Assembly (NCBI GenBank): GCA_003978375.1
Contig: QNZW01000201.1
Coordinates: forward strand, 1 to 13,586
Source: Sulfurovum sp.
GTDB taxonomy: Bacteria; Campylobacterota; Campylobacteria; Campylobacterales; Sulfurovaceae
Reading direction: 5' to 3'
Length of the DNA stretch: 13,586 nt
Shown: positions 1 to 11,632 of the stretch, one piece after another
How positions within the stretch are numbered: position 1 is the first letter of the stretch
Layout of the letters: every line of letters begins with the position of its first letter
Position numbers and translations under genes: made by a program
Notes under the pieces: generated by a model
The model's database searches: none
What the model saw: the letters and a program-made list of their open reading frames with translations, nothing else
What the model was told of the DNA's origin: nothing

Positions 1-2145
1 ATTTACCACCCCACCATGCTCCACCATCACGCCTTTAGGTTTGCCTGTAGACCCTGAGGTATAAATGACATAGGCTAAATGATGTGAGGTGACTGCTGTT
101 TTAGGATGACTCTTTTTCTCCCCAGAGACATCAAGCGTATCTATCGTCAGTATGTTGCTGTGTGTTTTTGGAAGTTGGGAGACTAGAGATGCTTGGGTGA
201 GTAACACTGTGGCATGTGTATCTTCTAGCATATGTGCTATTCTTCCTGCAGGATAGCTAGGATCTATAGGCACATAAGCTCCCCCAGCTTTTAAAATAGC
301 CAATATCCCTATCATCATATCCAAAGATCTCTCTACACAGAGTGCAACCAAACTATCTGGTTGCACCCCTTGTTTAATTAGATAGTGTGCCAGTTGGTTT
401 GCGTGTGTATTGAGTTGTGCATAGGTAAGTGTTTTATCTTCATAGATAACTGCTATATTCTCAGGGGTACGTTTGACTTGCTCCTCAAAGAGTTGATGAA
501 TGGTCTTCTCTTTAGGATAGGGTGCTTTGGTATCGTTATACTCTACTAGTAATTGTTTTTTCTCCTCTTTGGTTAAGAGTGAATAGCTTGAAAGAAGCTG
601 TGTTTCATCTTTAACAATGGCTTCTAGCAATATCTTGAAATGTGTTATCATGGCTTCTATGTAGCTTTGACTAAAGAGGTCTGTGGCGTATTCTAGGGTG
701 CCATGAAGTATGCCTTGACGCTCTTGCATATCTAAAGTTATTTCAAAGCGAGAGACATCTCTTGGTAATGTTTGTGATGTAATAGAGAGATTTGGCAATT
801 CAATACGTTTTTCTTGGGTATTGTGTAAAATAAACATCACTTGAAACAAAGGTGAACCCGAGGTGTCTCTTGGTAGTGTGAGTGCATCAATAATCTTTTC
901 TATAGGCAGATCTTGATGTTCGTAGGCATGCAATGTATGTTCTTTGGTTTGTTGTAATAGTGTATGAAATTTTATATTTTTTTGGAAAGACTGTTTAAGT
1001 ACCAATGGATTTGCAAAAAAACCAATGAGTGGCTCTACTTGAAGGGTATTTCTTCCTGAGACATAGGTGCCTAAGTAGATATCTTCTTTACCACTATATT
1101 GATGTAAAAGCAATCCAAAGCTACTGAGTAAAGTCATAAAAAGGGTTACATCATACTTTCTTGAGAGTTGATTGAGTTTTGTGCTTATCTCTTTATCGAT
1201 ACTAAAGGAGATACTTTGTCCTTTGTGGCTTAGGATATTGGGTCGTGTATAGCTTGTAGGAAGGGCTAAGGGTTCTACACCCAAGAGGGTATCTTTCCAG
1301 TATGCCAATTTTGTTTCTAGAATTTCTCCGCTTAAATATGCTCTTTGCCAAAGGGCATAATCTCCATAGTGTATCTCTAAAGGAAGCAAAGGATTCTCTT
1401 GTGCATGCATATAAGCTGTATAAAGCATGATAAACTCTTCAATTAAGATACCCATAGACCAACCATCAGAGATAATGTGATGCATATTGACAAGGAGGTA
1501 GTGTGTTTGTGTATCTAGGGTAAAAAGTGTGACTCTAAAGAGCATATCTTTTTCTAAATCAAAAGGGGTGGAGAGTATCTTTTGACTGAGGGTGTGTATC
1601 TCTGTTTCTTTACACACAATCTCTTCTATAGTGAAGTCATCCCTTTGGTTTACTTGTTGAAGGGCAACACCTTCTTTTTCTACAAAGTTTGTACGCAAGG
1701 ATTCATGTCTTTGCACAATGCTCTCAAAGGATTGTTTGAGAGCATCTTTATTAAGTTTTCCATGTAATTTTAGGCGTACGGGCATATGATAAAGGGTACT
1801 CTTTTCTTGTTCAAACTGATCTAAAAACCAAAGTCTCTCTTGGGCGTAAGACAGAGGAAAATGCATCCTATTGCTTTGTGCTTTTATTTGTGTGATGGTG
1901 CTCTTGCTTGCTTGGCTTAATAGCATGATTAAGTGTGCTATAGTGGGTTTGGCAAAGAGATCTTTTAGTATAAGCTCTACACCCAACTCACTGCGCACCC
2001 TAGAAACCAATTGCATCGCAAGAAGTGAATGCCCTCCTAGCTCAAAGAAGTTGTCATAGATGCCTACCTTCTCTACTTGTAATACCTCTGCAAAGATACT
2101 AGCTAACTTCTCTTCTATTTCATTCGTGGGGCTACGTAGGCTATT
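1..2145 (-). CDS. Non-ribosomal peptide synthetase: carrier, condensation, adenylation (partial, no own start codon)
   Basis: The minus-strand frame is open from the TAA at 2161-2163 to the left edge, where the gene is cut. Domains in order: a peptidyl carrier protein with LGGHS, whose phosphopantetheine serine codon is at 2026-2028; a condensation domain with YAQERLWFLD, an HHxxxDG active site (HHIISDG, about 1462-1482) and a late IGFFAN motif, so it should be catalytically able; then an adenylation domain with LTYAQLN, LKAGGAYVPID and YTSGSTGKPKG at the window edge. Specificity residues lie outside the window. There is no ATG, GTG or TTG in this frame before the ATG at 2014-2016, which lies after the carrier serine. 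The segment therefore seems to be the continuation of the upstream FAAL, joined by a -1 frame change. It is inferred to condense a FAAL-loaded fatty acid with an amino acid. Its GC looks higher than that of the FAAL and ketosynthase genes. The family call is very secure; the start given here is the first codon after the proposed slip site. Confidence 0.93.
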
Positions 2146-3857
2146 TTTTTTATATCCTCTTTATAGAGATAGTTTATTTGATCGTTTAGATAGGCTTCTT
2201 TGTTTTTGTATCTTTGAATTTTACCACTGGAGGTTTTTAAAATATTTCCTGGTCGAACAAAAACAACATCATGTATATTAAGTTCAAAATCTATACTTAT
2301 GGTTTGTTTAATAGCGTTTAATACCGTGGCGTAGTCAAATGTTTTAAGATGCATACGTTTAACTTCTTGAATAATGACTAATTTTTCAATCCCATTATCT
2401 TCAATGCCAAAAGCAACAGCTCCCATAGTAACTAATGATTCATGGGCACTATAAGCACTCAATTCTATATCTTGAGGATAATAATTTTTCCCTCGTATTA
2501 TAATGAGATCTTTGCTTCTTCCACAAACAAATAATTCATTGTGATACAAGAAGCCTAAATCACCTGTTCTTAAATAAAATTGATTAGAATCAGTATCTTG
2601 AAGTTGTGCTTTAAAAGTATCCTTTGTTTTTTGTGTATTTTTCCAATATCCTAATGTGATGCTTGGTCCTCTTGCCCATATTTCACCTACTTTTTTTTCA
2701 TCAAGTTTGTGTTTATTTGCATCAACAATAATCACTTCATGCCCCTCTCTTGGGGTACCACAAGAAACAAGTTTGATGCTTTTTTTATCATCATCTTGAA
2801 ATGAAATAAGATTATTTTTAAAATCATCTTTGTCAATAGAGATAGTTTTTACTTTCTCTTTTGCTTCAATCCCTGTTAAAAATAGTGTTGTCTCTGCCAT
2901 ACCATAACAAGGAAAATGCACCTTTTCATCTAAACCATAGGGTATAAATTTTTTATTAAATTTTTCTATAGTTTCGTAAGAGACAGGCTCTGCTCCAGTT
3001 GTAGCCAATGTGAGACTGGAAAGGTCAATAGCGTGTAAATCTTCTTTTTTAATATTGTTTACGCAAAGTTCATAAGCAAAATTAGGACCAGCAATCACAT
3101 TAACATTGTATTTACTAATGATTTCAAGCCATCGTACGGGTTTTTGCAAAAAATATACTGGAGACATCAAAATAACTTCTTTACCTAAAAAGAGTGGTTG
3201 TAAAATACCACCAATAAGTCCCATATCATGAAAATGAGGTAACCAGCTAGCACCAATATTGTTTTGTGTATCATCAACGATATGTTGCAATATCGATAAA
3301 TTACTTATTATATTTGCGTGGGTGACCATAACACCTTTTGGTAAGCCTGTAGATCCAGAAGTGTATTGCAAAAAGGCAATGTCTTCTGGGTCAATAGTGT
3401 GATGATGTTTTGTTACAATTTTTTCTTTTATACTATCTTCAGTGTCAAAAATAGGTATATGCTCTAAACTATTTTCGTTATGAAAAATATGCAACAATGT
3501 ATCCTCTATTTTGTGTGTGGTCAATATAATTTTAGGAAGGCAATCATCGATAATATTTTTTAATCTATGGGGTTTTTCATTTTTTCGTGGAGGGTAAACC
3601 GAGACTGCTATGACACCAGCATACAAACAAGCAACAAATGCCGATATAAATTCAAGACCAGGTTGATAAAGCAACAGGGCTCTATCACCCTTTTTTGCAA
3701 TTTGTAATAGTTTGTTTTCTATTTTTCTTGCTTCCTTGTCAATCTCTTGAAATGTTTTTGTGACAGAAGGTCTATCCTCATTTTCTATGTATCTATATAC
3801 TATTTGTGTAGGTATATTTTTTAGATGATGTTGTATCATATCAACTATTGTATTCAT
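2115..3857 (-). CDS. Fatty acyl-AMP ligase (FAAL), lipopeptide loading enzyme
   Basis: 580 residues of an ANL-superfamily adenylating enzyme of the FAAL branch. It should activate a fatty acid as acyl-AMP and pass it to a carrier protein rather than to CoA. Visible motifs: the P-loop YTSGSTGLPKG near residues 165-175, the FAAL-like SWLPHFHDMGLIGG near 204-217, CYGMAETTLFLTG near 317-329 followed by the extra segment typical of FAALs, YLRTGDLGF near 428-436, and a C-terminal SSGKIQR with lysine near 546. The start ATG has a GGGGGAAAAG stretch just upstream. It follows the ketosynthase gene by 48 bp on the same strand. The normal FAAL fold ends around residue 560; the tail reads AYVAPR, a typical NRPS linker, then MK and a TAG stop. 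The carrier domain continues in the -1 frame, so the natural product was probably a FAAL-NRPS fusion. Confidence 0.93.
   Translation of the reverse strand: MNTIVDMIQHHLKNIPTQIVYRYIENEDRPSVTKTFQEIDKEARKIENKLLQIAKKGDRALLLYQPGLEFISAFVACLYAGVIAVSVYPPRKNEKPHRLKNIIDDCLPKIILTTHKIEDTLLHIFHNENSLEHIPIFDTEDSIKEKIVTKHHHTIDPEDIAFLQYTSGSTGLPKGVMVTHANIISNLSILQHIVDDTQNNIGASWLPHFHDMGLIGGILQPLFLGKEVILMSPVYFLQKPVRWLEIISKYNVNVIAGPNFAYELCVNNIKKEDLHAIDLSSLTLATTGAEPVSYETIEKFNKKFIPYGLDEKVHFPCYGMAETTLFLTGIEAKEKVKTISIDKDDFKNNLISFQDDDKKSIKLVSCGTPREGHEVIIVDANKHKLDEKKVGEIWARGPSITLGYWKNTQKTKDTFKAQLQDTDSNQFYLRTGDLGFLYHNELFVCGRSKDLIIIRGKNYYPQDIELSAYSAHESLVTMGAVAFGIEDNGIEKLVIIQEVKRMHLKTFDYATVLNAIKQTISIDFELNIHDVVFVRPGNILKTSSGKIQRYKNKEAYLNDQINYLYKEDIKKIAYVAPRMK
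2144..2151 (-). other. A8 tract at the FAAL/NRPS frame junction: candidate slippage or -1 frameshift site
   Basis: The coding strand has eight consecutive A. In the FAAL frame the codons are ATA AAA AAA ATA, so the heptamer A AAA AAA sits in register as an X XXY YYZ slippery site. A -1 slip here, or one added A by polymerase slippage, continues in the NRPS frame as NSLRSPTNEIEEKLA with no stop. An AGAGGA purine stretch resembling a Shine-Dalgarno lies about 4 bases upstream; I see no convincing hairpin downstream. The register and its outcome are seen directly. Whether the site is used, or simply marks an indel or a base-calling error, is not decided. A single A missing near 2124 would also restore the frame, as AYVAPRNEIEEKL. 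Confidence 0.5.
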
Positions 3858-3879
3858 TCTTTTCCCCCATGTTTATATC

Positions 3880-3899
3880 TTTAATTAATGCTAATTAAA
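3880..3899. repeat. AT-only inverted repeat between ketosynthase and FAAL genes
   Basis: A perfect 8 bp inverted repeat, TTTAATTA and TAATTAAA, is separated by the four bases ATGC in the 48 bp spacer. The stem is all A-T and is not followed by a T run, so it is unlikely to terminate transcription. It may be a protein-binding site or just AT-rich spacer. Confidence 0.3.
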
Positions 3900-3905
3900 T
3901 CTGTA

Positions 3906-5189
3906 TTATTTTATAAATTTTTTAAAAAGTAATGCTCCATTGTGTCCACCAAAAGCAAAAGATTCTGATATGGCATAGACAATATCTAAGTCTATAGGTT
4001 CTTTTACAAAGTTTAAATCAGAAATAGGATCTTTTAGTCCATTGTTGGCATGTATTTTTTTGTTTTGTATGCTTAAAATCGTTGTAATGGTTTCAATAAT
4101 ACCACTTGCAGAAATAGAATGTCCTAGTAATGACTTTGTAGAGTTTATCGCTGTATGGCGATTAAATATTTTTCCTAAAACCAATGATTCAACTTCATCA
4201 TTTTTTATGGTGCCTGTACCGTGAGCATTGATATAAGAAATCTCTTCAGGCATTACAGATGCCTTAGACAATAAATCTAAAAGCATTTTTTCAATATATG
4301 CACCTGTTAAATCAGGTGAGACCATATTGTACCCATCAAACGTATCAGAAAATCCAACAATTTCTGCAAGTATTGTTGCTCCTCTTTTTTTGGCATGTTC
4401 AAGCGATTCAATCACCAAAGCACCTGCACCACCTTCACTAAATAAAAAACCATTTCTATTTTTATCAAAAGGGATATTGGCTTTGGTGATATCATCACTT
4501 TTTGTCAAAGTATTCCCATAAAAAAAACTGTTATAGAGTAAGCCCACTTCTTGATCAGCATATTCGCTGGCACATATAATCGCCATATCTATTGTAGCAT
4601 TTTTGATACTTTCAAAGGCTTTTCCTATAAGTATAGTACCCGTAGCACAAGCGTAGGTGCCACTATTAATATTGTGGTGTAAACTTAATTTAATGCCTGA
4701 TGCTGCGGCAATATTATAAGGCATGGTCTTTGCTACACTTAGTGCATCTAGTCGCACTTTTTTCCCAGATCTGACCTCTGCAAACTGTATGGTTGCATTA
4801 GAGAGTGTTTCTATGCCTCCTATCCCTGTTCCTCCAAATATACCTATTTTATCTACATCAATATGTTTGTCTTTGATTACATAACGGTTTAATTTATCAT
4901 TTAATTTTACTAGATTTATGTTTGCTTGTTTTAATGCTTCTTCTATGCTTAGTAAGGCATTTAATGTGACAGGCTCAAATTGTAATATTTCAGATTTTGA
5001 AAAATCTAAAGTACGATAATCAAGTTTTGGTAAAGGGGCATAAAAACCTTTCCTATTTGGATCTATCTTCCAAGAGACAGGTACTTCTTTGATGGCAGGA
5101 ATATTGGCTATCAAGTTTTTCCAAAGTAGATCTTTTCCTAGGCCATATGAAGTATAACTTCCCATGCCTGTAACGACTACCCTTTTCAT
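3906..5189 (-). CDS. Beta-ketoacyl-ACP synthase, FabF (KAS II)-like, dedicated to the lipopeptide operon
   Basis: A 427-residue condensing enzyme of the thiolase fold. It joins an acyl group to malonyl-ACP with loss of CO2, so it could extend or tailor the fatty acid used by the neighbouring FAAL. The catalytic triad is complete: Cys181 in YACATG, His323 in NAHGTGT, and His357 in KSLLGHSISASG with Lys352. It ends in the usual FAFGGHNGALLF. The length fits FabF (about 410-430). Its ATG overlaps the stop of the carrier protein gene as ATGA, so translation is probably coupled. Its place between a dedicated ACP and a FAAL, with no other fatty acid synthesis genes in the window, argues for a specialised secondary-metabolite role rather than the housekeeping fabF. 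Chain-length factor activity is unlikely because the cysteine is present. The exact substrate cannot be read from the sequence. Confidence 0.92.
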   Translation of the reverse strand: MKRVVVTGMGSYTSYGLGKDLLWKNLIANIPAIKEVPVSWKIDPNRKGFYAPLPKLDYRTLDFSKSEILQFEPVTLNALLSIEEALKQANINLVKLNDKLNRYVIKDKHIDVDKIGIFGGTGIGGIETLSNATIQFAEVRSGKKVRLDALSVAKTMPYNIAAASGIKLSLHHNINSGTYACATGTILIGKAFESIKNATIDMAIICASEYADQEVGLLYNSFFYGNTLTKSDDITKANIPFDKNRNGFLFSEGGAGALVIESLEHAKKRGATILAEIVGFSDTFDGYNMVSPDLTGAYIEKMLLDLLSKASVMPEEISYINAHGTGTIKNDEVESLVLGKIFNRHTAINSTKSLLGHSISASGIIETITTILSIQNKKIHANNGLKDPISDLNFVKEPIDLDIVYAISESFAFGGHNGALLFKKFIK

Positions 5190-5443
5190 GAAGTTTTATG
5201 ATTTTGTAATAAAGTTTCTATATAATCAACAATGGACTCTACCGTTGTAAAATTAGCAAATTCTTCATCTTCTATTGAGATATCATATAGCTCTTCTAAA
5301 TCCATGATTAACGTGATACCATCCACAGAATCCATCTCTAAATCCTCTATGAGTCTAGAAGATAAATCTAATTCCAAATCTTCCACATTTAGGGTTTCTC
5401 TTATTGCTTTATAAACTTTTTCAGTAATTTCAATCCTGGTCAT
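5186..5443 (-). CDS. Acyl carrier protein, stand-alone
   Basis: An 85-residue acyl carrier protein with the phosphopantetheine attachment motif EMDSVDGI (Ser39), an acidic helix II (LIMDLEELYDISIEDEEF) and the usual length. It should carry malonyl or acyl groups for the ketosynthase encoded immediately downstream, with which it overlaps by 4 bp (ATGA). The start is supported by an AGAGGG Shine-Dalgarno 5-6 bases upstream of the ATG. It is the first gene of the operon and has a good -10 box about 28 bases upstream of the start. It differs from a housekeeping AcpP in its more diverged N-terminus, as expected for a pathway-dedicated carrier. It could also deliver a finished acyl chain to the FAAL or NRPS; the sequence does not say which. 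Confidence 0.9.
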   Translation of the reverse strand: MTRIEITEKVYKAIRETLNVEDLELDLSSRLIEDLEMDSVDGITLIMDLEELYDISIEDEEFANFTTVESIVDYIETLLQNHKTS

Positions 5444-5572: not shown

Positions 5573-6633
5573 TACATACAAACGAGTTTGGTTACGACAA
5601 AGCCACCTGAGACTAGCCAGATAAACATTACAGTAGCGGTATAAATAGGTGCTAAGCCCAAACCTTTAAATTTGGAAAAAATAGTTCCCATACCAAGAGC
5701 CGTCATTGCCATGGTAAGTAAGAAAGTATCTACTTCATTGATAATATCTACTATAGTTTGAGGAACAAGGTGCAAGGAATTAAATCCTGCAACCATAATA
5801 AAATAAACAGCAAACCATGGAATTACAAGTTTAATTTTCTCATCTACGTCTCCACCTACTTTTTTGGCAGACCAAGCGAGATAAAGACCAAGAACAATAA
5901 GCATAGGGGCAATCATAATAACCCTTGTCATTTTTACAATCACAGCAGCATCAGCCATATCTTTTGGGCTATTTGGGATGGAAGCAGGCACGGCTACGAC
6001 TTGTGCAACTTCATGAATGGTGGCACCTACATAGATACCAAAAGTACGTGGATCCATATGCAGAAAGCCTACAGCATTTTTAATCAGTGTTTCATACATG
6101 ACTGGATATAAAAACATAGAGATAGTACCAAAAAGTACGACCATTGAAACAGCAACAGCGGTTTTATGTTCTTGGGCTTTAAGCACAGGCTCTGTAGCAA
6201 GTACAGCAGCGGCTCCACAGACTGAAGCACCAGAAGCTGTGAGGATAGAAGTGTCTTTGTCCATACCAAAAACACGGTACCCTAACCATGAACCAAGAAT
6301 AAGGGTACTTGTAAGCATAATCAATGAGACTAAAAACCCATCCATACCTACTTGTGCAATTTGTTGAAAAGTAATTCTAAACCCATACAGTACAATAGCA
6401 AAACGCAAGATTTTTTTTCCTGAAAATGTGATACCACTTTGCCATGCTTTAGGTGTTTGGTTGTGCAAAGTATTGGCATAAAAAATACCCATAACAATAC
6501 CTATAACCAAAGGAGACAAGCCAAGAGCCTTGATAGGAGCCAACCCAGAGACATAGGTAGCAGCTGCTGCAAAAATAGCAACGAATAAGATACCCATAAG
6601 GGTACCATTACGATTTTTTTGTGAAAAAGCCAT
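5572..6633 (-). CDS. yeiH: YeiH/UPF0324 family inner-membrane protein, putative sulfate/sulfite exporter
   Basis: A 353-residue very hydrophobic protein with about ten predicted membrane segments and the family signatures GASVCGAAAV, GATIHEVAQV and VKMTRV, at the normal family length (about 340-350). Members are annotated as putative sulfate exporters, and in enterobacteria yeiH is controlled by the divergent LysR regulator YeiE. The same divergent arrangement is seen here, which supports the assignment. The exported substrate is inferred, not shown. The start at 6633 is preceded by AAAGG about 11 bases upstream, and the N-terminus MAFSQKNRNG leads straight into the first membrane helix. It is monocistronic as far as visible, with a hairpin at its end. 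The family call is secure; the transport role is moderate. Confidence 0.88.
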   Translation of the reverse strand: MAFSQKNRNGTLMGILFVAIFAAAATYVSGLAPIKALGLSPLVIGIVMGIFYANTLHNQTPKAWQSGITFSGKKILRFAIVLYGFRITFQQIAQVGMDGFLVSLIMLTSTLILGSWLGYRVFGMDKDTSILTASGASVCGAAAVLATEPVLKAQEHKTAVAVSMVVLFGTISMFLYPVMYETLIKNAVGFLHMDPRTFGIYVGATIHEVAQVVAVPASIPNSPKDMADAAVIVKMTRVIMIAPMLIVLGLYLAWSAKKVGGDVDEKIKLVIPWFAVYFIMVAGFNSLHLVPQTIVDIINEVDTFLLTMAMTALGMGTIFSKFKGLGLAPIYTATVMFIWLVSGGFVVTKLVCM

Positions 6634-9859: not shown

Positions 9860-11074
9860 CTAATTCATTCCTTGTGTCATCGTAAAGATTGGAAGCATCA
9901 TTGCTGCAATAATAACACCAACAAATCCACCAATTAGAATCATCATGAATGGGTTTAGCAGACTTAGAAGAATATTGAGTTTATCATCATTTTCTTCGGC
10001 ATATAGATTGGCTGTATTATTTAAAACTTCTGATACCTCACTAGATTCTTCTCCTAGGGCAAGGGTTTGCATAAAATTACGTTTTATTTTTACGCCTTTA
10101 GAAAGTGCTAAAGAGTTAGAGAGCTTATTCCCTTCTACGACTTTCACTGATGCTTTGTCAAAAAGATTTTTAAGTTTATAATTTGCGAATGTTGCCTTAG
10201 AAAGTTGAACAGCTTGTGCATAGGCAACGCCAGATCCAAGCATCAGCGAGAGGATATAAGAAAATCTACCCAATTCATGGTTTTGTATCAGTTCTCCTAT
10301 AAGAGGTACTTTAAGCATCCAGCCATCTATCAATTCATGAAAGGCATTAATTTTTGCATAGGCAAGTTTAAATAAAACAATCAATAAAATAATACCAATA
10401 AGTATACCCATATAATGGGCAATAAGAAAATCACTACTAGAGACAACAACCTGTGTAATTGGAGGCAATTCTTGATCTGTATCTTCAAAAATTTGTGCAA
10501 TTTCTGGTACTACTGAAACCAATAAAAATCCTATAATCAAAATGGCAACAACAAAAATAACACTAGGATAAATCATCGCACCTTTGACTTGCTTCCTTAC
10601 TTTTGTTTGTGCAGAAAAAAAGTTTGCCATATTGGTAAGGACCTCCACCATTTTTCCACTTTGTCCAGCCACATTAAGACTTTGTAGATAAAAATCAGGA
10701 AGTACATAAACTTTTTGAGTGTCGAGTGCATGATAGAGCGATTTCCCCTCATCAATCATTGTTTTGAGTGAGTTTAAGAAAGAGACATAACGCTTTTCTC
10801 CCTCGTGTTGATTTTCTAGGAGTTTGATGGCAGTAAGTATGGTCATGCCAGAATTAAGATAAGAAGAGAGTTCTTTAGAAAATGTGGCAAGAAGTTCTCC
10901 TGGCATTTGACGTGCAGAAAAGGCATCAAATGAAAATTCAGTCGTCTCTGTAAGCCCTTCATGATAGATGCCTTTACTCTTTAGTTTTTGAGTAGCTTCT
11001 TCTATAGAGCTGGCATTAATCGTACCCTTAACTTTTTTTCCTGATTTGTCAAAACCTTTATATTTTAAAAGCAT
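9860..11074 (-). CDS. gspF: Type II secretion system inner-membrane platform protein GspF
   Basis: A 404-residue platform protein of the GspF/PilC family, which connects the cytoplasmic ATPase to pseudopilus assembly. An N-terminal domain (YKGFDKSGKKVKGTI, residues 4-18) is followed by two T2SSF domains, roughly residues 65-190 (with FSKELSSYLNSGM and GAMIYPSVIFVVAILIIGF) and 268-395 (with FSYILSLMLGSGV and LLNPFMMILIGGFVGVII). Three membrane segments are visible near 167-190, 222-240 and 370-395. Length and layout are normal. The start has AAGGAT 9-10 bases upstream. PilC of type IV pili is the alternative; adjacent gspG-, gspK- and small pseudopilin-like genes favour T2SS. It heads a run with the RDD, MFS and mobA genes; no gspE or gspD is in the window. 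Confidence 0.9.
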   Translation of the reverse strand: MLLKYKGFDKSGKKVKGTINASSIEEATQKLKSKGIYHEGLTETTEFSFDAFSARQMPGELLATFSKELSSYLNSGMTILTAIKLLENQHEGEKRYVSFLNSLKTMIDEGKSLYHALDTQKVYVLPDFYLQSLNVAGQSGKMVEVLTNMANFFSAQTKVRKQVKGAMIYPSVIFVVAILIIGFLLVSVVPEIAQIFEDTDQELPPITQVVVSSSDFLIAHYMGILIGIILLIVLFKLAYAKINAFHELIDGWMLKVPLIGELIQNHELGRFSYILSLMLGSGVAYAQAVQLSKATFANYKLKNLFDKASVKVVEGNKLSNSLALSKGVKIKRNFMQTLALGEESSEVSEVLNNTANLYAEENDDKLNILLSLLNPFMMILIGGFVGVIIAAMMLPIFTMTQGMN

Positions 11075-11143: not shown

Positions 11144-11632
11144 ATGAAACAATTTATAGCGCTTTATTTTCTATTTTTAGCCATACTTTTTGTATTGTTT
11201 TATGCTCCAACTTCAGATTTTTCTATATTTTTAAATGAGGGGCAAACAAAGTTAACCCTTTTTTTCTTAGATAAATTTTTAGAACCAGAGCAATTAAAAG
11301 GTATCAATATTTGGATTCACCCAAATTATAAAATCGTGATTCACCAAGCGTGTAATGGAATGATTCCTATACTTTTTTTATTTGCTTCTATTTTAGCATA
11401 TCCTGCAAGTTTTGGGCATAAGATAGTATGGATGTTCCTTGGTTATATTGTCTTTTCTTTGGTGAATGTGGCACGTATTTTATTGGTGGTACATGCAACA
11501 AAAATAGGAGAAGGTCATGAAGAGTTTTATTGGTCTCATGACCTTGTGGGAAACACAATTTTAATGATAACAGGTTTAGTGATGTTTGTAGTTTTTATTG
11601 CAACATCAAGAAGCATATATCATTTAAAGTGA
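11144..11632 (+). CDS. Exosortase/archaeosortase-family transpeptidase, small XrtH-like type
   Basis: A 162-residue, almost entirely membrane-embedded protein with about five hydrophobic segments. Three motifs match the exosortase/archaeosortase catalytic set: Cys70 in HQACNGMIPI, Arg111 in NVARILLVV, and His132 in WSHDLVGN. Exosortases recognise short C-terminal tags (PEP-CTERM and relatives), cleave them at the inner membrane and release or transfer the protein to a cell-surface anchor. The short length resembles compact types such as XrtH, but the exact subtype is inferred. It lies alone on the plus strand between gspF and the pseudopilin operon, and its last 9 bp overlap the convergent pseudopilin gene. 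No protein complete in this window ends in a CTERM-like tag, so its substrate must be encoded elsewhere. The only possible ATG lacks a Shine-Dalgarno. Confidence 0.8.
   Translation: MKQFIALYFLFLAILFVLFYAPTSDFSIFLNEGQTKLTLFFLDKFLEPEQLKGINIWIHPNYKIVIHQACNGMIPILFLFASILAYPASFGHKIVWMFLGYIVFSLVNVARILLVVHATKIGEGHEEFYWSHDLVGNTILMITGLVMFVVFIATSRSIYHLK

Follow-up and report, generated by a model that had tools for sequence, protein, structure and literature searches.

A probable assembly or consensus error divides a fatty acyl-AMP ligase–peptide synthetase gene in a Sulfurovum metagenome contig

In a contig of Sulfurovum sp. (QNZW01000201.1; all 13,586 bases were analysed and are referred to here as the window), the gene for a fatty acyl-AMP ligase (FAAL) runs directly into that of a nonribosomal peptide synthetase (NRPS), with a change of reading frame at the joint. 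A preliminary description of this DNA took the two to be one polypeptide interrupted by a single frame change. The comparisons presented here support the first part of that description, in that the FAAL and NRPS halves appear to be one polypeptide by descent. They lend no support to an interruption in the organism itself, since the window (contig C29) belongs to a fragmented metagenome-assembled genome (MAG; 228 contigs, 79% complete) in which the sole match to secA is broken in the same register. The register change is most likely a one-off in this contig, and on sequence evidence we favour, with some reserve, an assembly or consensus error that would be absent from the living cell. If so, gene prediction will report a stand-alone FAAL and an NRPS devoid of the carrier serine in place of what is really a gene for one lipo-initiation synthetase.

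The joint and its fused relatives

The minus strand encodes both genes. The FAAL frame (2115..3857, 580 amino acids; Pfam AMP-binding, 4.1e-66, and PF23024) has the C-terminus IAYVAPRMK, followed by the stop codon TAG at 2115-2117. The NRPS frame is in the −1 register and remains open from 2160, just after a stop codon, through the contig end, such that 43 bases (2118..2160) are open in both frames. Its coding part (1..2124) translates as RGYKKNSLRSPT-NEIEEKLASIFAEVLQ...DNFFELGGHSLLAMQL (carrier motif), continues through a Condensation domain and ends in a partial AMP-binding domain. When the codons around the joint were compared with the five closest fused relatives, the seven upstream gave BLOSUM62 scores of 20 to 27 in the FAAL frame versus −1 to 10 in the NRPS frame, and the eight downstream gave 19 to 33 in the NRPS frame versus −10 to −7 in the FAAL frame. 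Judging by the fit on either side, the frame therefore switches after R578 of the FAAL and before the next residue, N, with the conserved linker ..YVAPR|NEIEEKL.. handed from one frame to the other at 2122..2127 and the last two residues of the FAAL frame, MK, forming an out-of-frame tail. Upstream of the codon for the carrier serine (2026-2028) the NRPS frame is devoid of ATG, GTG, TTG, CTG and ATT, and has just ATA at 2116-2118 and ATC at 2095-2097 and 2059-2061. The first ATG, GTG or TTG is the ATG at 2014-2016, which lies 3′ of the serine codon. The handover through AYVAPR into NEIEEKLA and the missing start codon are both as the preliminary description placed them.

That description also proposed a comparison with close relatives, and an uninterrupted FAAL–NRPS was found in loci L016 and L051 and in proteins P0241, P0242 and P0002. 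In all five, the pieces of the window align end to end in a single chain with zero gap at the exact joint and none has the break, which is the basis for regarding the halves as one polypeptide by descent. Identities to the FAAL and NRPS parts, respectively, are 53% and 61% for L016, 51% and 33% for L051 (adjacent NRPS part), 56% and 66% for P0241, and 57% and 55% for P0242, while P0002 is 53% identical over the FAAL and 68% over the carrier. In L016, a ‘Campylobacteraceae’ MAG, the chain is a single open frame of 3247 amino acids inside the locus, with no N; in L051, from the Sulfurimonas endosymbiont of Alviniconcha boucheti, the frame is open from 7989 up to a masked stretch starting at 13640 (the ends of this locus are masked N). 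Like the window, L016, L051, P0241 and P0242 have the FAAL followed by a carrier with a linker of the form ..[YL].APRN.. at the joint, and in L016, P0241 and P0242 condensation and adenylation domains come next. They differ from the window in that their frame is uninterrupted, and L016 differs further in having a phosphopantetheinyl transferase gene before the fusion, where the window has a ketoacyl synthase (KS) and a free acyl carrier protein (ACP).

More broadly, the NRPS piece was found within 3 kb downstream of the FAAL in 24 of 92 fetched loci (the window's own two left out), and in 23 of these, the exception being L092, it is in the same frame. In the remaining loci the NRPS piece was not found or the flank was short, as were the flanks of L003–L014; L003 and L051, whose figures are the same, probably represent a single locus. 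Among the 347 proteins (of 360) matching the FAAL piece, 124 have the NRPS piece following in the same chain, although many of the 347 match through ordinary adenylation domains. No near-identical second copy of either half was seen in the best 120 of each protein search, in which P0001 and P0121 are the window's own proteins and the next best matches are 53% and 66% identical. The contigs of P0241 and P0122 have the same listed length, 90,255 bases; as P0241 stops early in an adenylation domain and P0122 starts inside one, that assembly may contain a further broken NRPS gene.

Frame breaks in the same assembly

Contigs of the same bin were screened for two frames of at least 150 amino acids on one strand, the second open across the stop of the first and without a start codon until at least 45 bases later. 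There was one match in 20 contigs (336,414 bases) and none in 20 further contigs (233,697 bases), or one in 40 contigs and 570,111 bases. The match lies inside secA (locus L104, G000:C7, minus strand, stop at 5871-5873) and has the same register as the window; one half matches SecA models in their N-terminal part and the other in their C-terminal part, and it is the sole SecA_DEAD match in the bin. Of the 76 other genomes of the genus that have a match, 72 contain an open secA frame of at least 868 amino acids; the frame is shorter in G063, G076, G017 and G007. Since SecA is essential in bacteria, the secA break is almost surely an artefact. The assembly thus holds a like break in a gene that a living cell cannot lose, which makes an assembly or consensus error the likeliest origin of the FAAL–NRPS joint as well and cautions against taking frame breaks in this bin as biology. 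Many bacterial pseudogenes are reported to be assembly errors (PMC11017572), and singleton frame transitions have been attributed to likely indel mutations or sequencing errors (PMC3711429).

A looser screen (frames of at least 100 amino acids with a true overlap) returned nine pairs in the 40 contigs, one of them secA. Of the other eight, five were compared with Pfam and just one looks like a single broken gene, that of a YfhO-like membrane protein, which appears split in two frames in L136 (G000:C39, plus strand, ∼9939-9961). In relatives, the YfhO-like gene is a single frame of 822 amino acids in G039, and the match in G022 contains stops. A TruD/HAD pair and a DUF1538 gene with an unmatched frame look like separate genes, and in the YhdP and histidine kinase pairs each is followed by a frame without a Pfam match. 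Further overlapping pairs occur in L122, L124, L137, L138 and on the plus strand of L104, some of which may be additional breaks. Allowing the second frame to open up to 30 bases past the stop gave more pairs, a pattern that ordinary neighbouring genes also fit. A stop-bearing AMP-ligase match in contig C16, an apparent break, is really an intact gene of 513 amino acids.

Several observations weigh against an assembly or consensus error at the joint. With one strict and one likely looser case in 570,111 bases, breaks are rare in the bin and error is not rampant. The strict screen found none in relatives, but the 141,829 bases covered there are too few to separate the rates. A secondary-metabolite gene, unlike secA, could tolerate a real mutation, and the joint itself is outside any homopolymer. 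Finally, a run of eight A (A8, 2144..2151), at which the FAAL frame reads ATA AAA AAA ATA and so contains the heptamer A_AAA_AAA, sits in the frame overlap, where about 0.02 such in-frame heptamers would be expected.

Other explanations of the register change

Ranking next is a real private frameshift, a recent pseudogene or segregating null allele whose cells make a free FAAL and no fused loading module, which we consider a good deal less probable. The break is unseen in relatives and apart from it both halves have open frames, which would suit a mutation of recent date; moreover, the ACP–KS–FAAL–NRPS cluster is accessory, so that such a mutation has to be reckoned with. A FAAL match was obtained in just 13 of the 150 relatives searched, the window's own counted, and the cluster is missing at the same place in four relatives. 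In these (G008, G039, G052 and G042; flanks L143–L146), six genes from a type II secretion gene to a YeiH-like gene are kept, and no ACP, KS or FAAL match comes after, L145 extending only ∼1.4 kb past the YeiH-like gene. The mutation would not dispense with an error source, which the essential secA, broken in the same register by the same assembly, needs anyway. A more remote prospect is that the joint is a border at which an ACP–KS–FAAL side and an NRPS side of different source met in conflicting registers, either through an event in the cell or during assembly. The GC content at third codon positions (GC3) rises from 0.222 in the KS and 0.210 in the FAAL to 0.338 in the NRPS, these being the 19th, 12th and 98.6th percentiles of 291 open reading frames (ORFs) of at least 250 codons in the 40 bin contigs. 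The step fits best at 31 codons upstream of the joint, with a log-likelihood gain of 17.3, compared with 15.7 (1.6 lower) at the joint and a maximum of 8.2 in 300 shuffles in which every fifth codon was tested. The NRPS half is also closer to a later module of L016 (62.4%) than to the module beside its FAAL (60.8%), and closer to another NRPS stretch of L051 (64.5%) than to the module beside the FAAL there (33.5%). Either a synthetase of mosaic descent or a mis-join in the contig could account for the GC3 jump. Yet the same domain order is uninterrupted in P0241 with halves 56% and 66% identical to those of the window, GC3 of the NRPS part is likewise somewhat above that of the FAAL in L015, L016, L017 and L051, and if contigs had been mis-joined by a word that they share exactly at a conserved motif, the register would be expected to stay intact.

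Two further explanations were considered. Rescue by slippage, in which ribosomes (−1) or RNA polymerase slip on A8 to give a free FAAL and a FAAL–NRPS fusion, is improbable. In its favour, the heptamer is in the FAAL frame within the sole stretch open in both frames, −1 is the direction needed, and its low expectation there was derived from 153 in-frame occurrences in 316,194 ORF bases, spurious ORFs counted. Poly(A) rescue is known from AT-rich endosymbionts, as passages of PMC5009743 describe. The fusion so formed would have the linker NSLRSPT replacing IAYVAPR, of the same length, whereas the codons that a slip would skip still give the conserved YVAPR linker when read without it. L016 and L051 have no A8 over the 60 bases that precede the joint, their longest A runs there being 5 and 4, and the five closest fused relatives do without the break. 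The RNA is unremarkable over the 101 bases folded (2060-2160), with a z score of −0.95 and 31 of 200 shuffles folding as well or better. Programmed frameshifting therefore has its slippery site in the overlap and neither a frame change conserved in homologues nor a stimulating RNA structure; it was rated low after the conservation, slippery site, folding and linker tests. A recent frame change tolerated in the lineage, with A8 slippage yielding both a free FAAL as stand-alone ligase and a full FAAL–NRPS as lipo-initiation module, is if anything slightly harder to accept. Were slippage true, the NRPS would be an example of recoding; judging by titles and the starts of abstracts, no such example was recognised among the papers searched on NRPSs and frameshifting or slippage. 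Hardly credible is the production of two separate proteins, with the NRPS part restarting by termination–reinitiation at ATA 2116-2118 or ATC 2095-2097. The frames abut and the ATA overlaps the TAG stop (ATAG), but ATA is a very rare start codon, the carrier serine is preceded by no ATG, GTG or TTG, and the close relatives are fused.

Domain content, predicted function and locus

The AMP-ligase half is predicted to be a FAAL-type acyl-AMP ligase. Its matches include AMP-ligases named FAAL among others, the NCBIfam FAAL models match below their curated cut-offs, and the best solved structures are 7r7e and 3kxw, both of which we take to be FAALs. The second half contains a carrier domain with its phosphopantetheine serine (NEIEEKL...FFELGGHSLL), which aligns to the carrier part of both P0241 and L016, a region with a Pfam match to PP-binding. 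This is followed by a condensation domain (Condensation, 5e-107) with the HHxxxDG motif (HHIISDG) and then by the start of an adenylation domain, at which the contig ends. FAAL and carrier, in one frame in the closest relatives, are in two in the window as assembled, owing to the −1 switch after FAAL residue 578. No further NRPS modules were found elsewhere in the bin.

By descent, this would be a single gene encoding a lipo-initiating NRPS. By analogy with the known family, the FAAL would turn a fatty acid into an acyl-AMP and load the acyl group onto the carrier domain fused to it, for the first condensation domain to couple with the amino acid of the adenylation module that follows. Two genes upstream of the FAAL on the same strand, for a FabF-type KS (3906..5189; assigned by Pfam, with NCBIfam scores under the cut-offs) and a free-standing ACP of 85 amino acids (5186..5443; ORF, Pfam and NCBIfam), might make or supply the acyl chain. 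Modules of FAAL, carrier, condensation and adenylation domains are of an already known kind. In the puwainaphycin system (PMC4219810), a fatty acyl-AMP ligase likewise initiates and an NRPS continues, although product, host and downstream modules differ and the window breaks off within its first adenylation domain. Another lipopeptide assembly line of the Campylobacteria, that of barnesin A from Sulfurospirillum barnesii, is an NRPS–polyketide synthase hybrid (PMC13096860); the terms ‘FAAL’ and ‘fatty acyl’ are absent from the main text of that paper. The literature found on nonribosomal peptides in Sulfurovum is, by its titles, survey or review.

The named FAAL relatives come from Sulfurovum, Sulfurimonas and Arcobacter records, with more distant ones in, for example, Pseudoalteromonas. 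The ACP–KS–FAAL–NRPS cluster (1-5443) comes after the YeiH-like gene in the window alone when compared with L143–L146. The type II secretion gene of the window is present in 71 of the 78 genus-level genomes searched, the window's own counted. A short exosortase-like membrane protein (PF09721) is encoded at 11144-11632; the type II secretion and pilin-like genes lie on the other strand.

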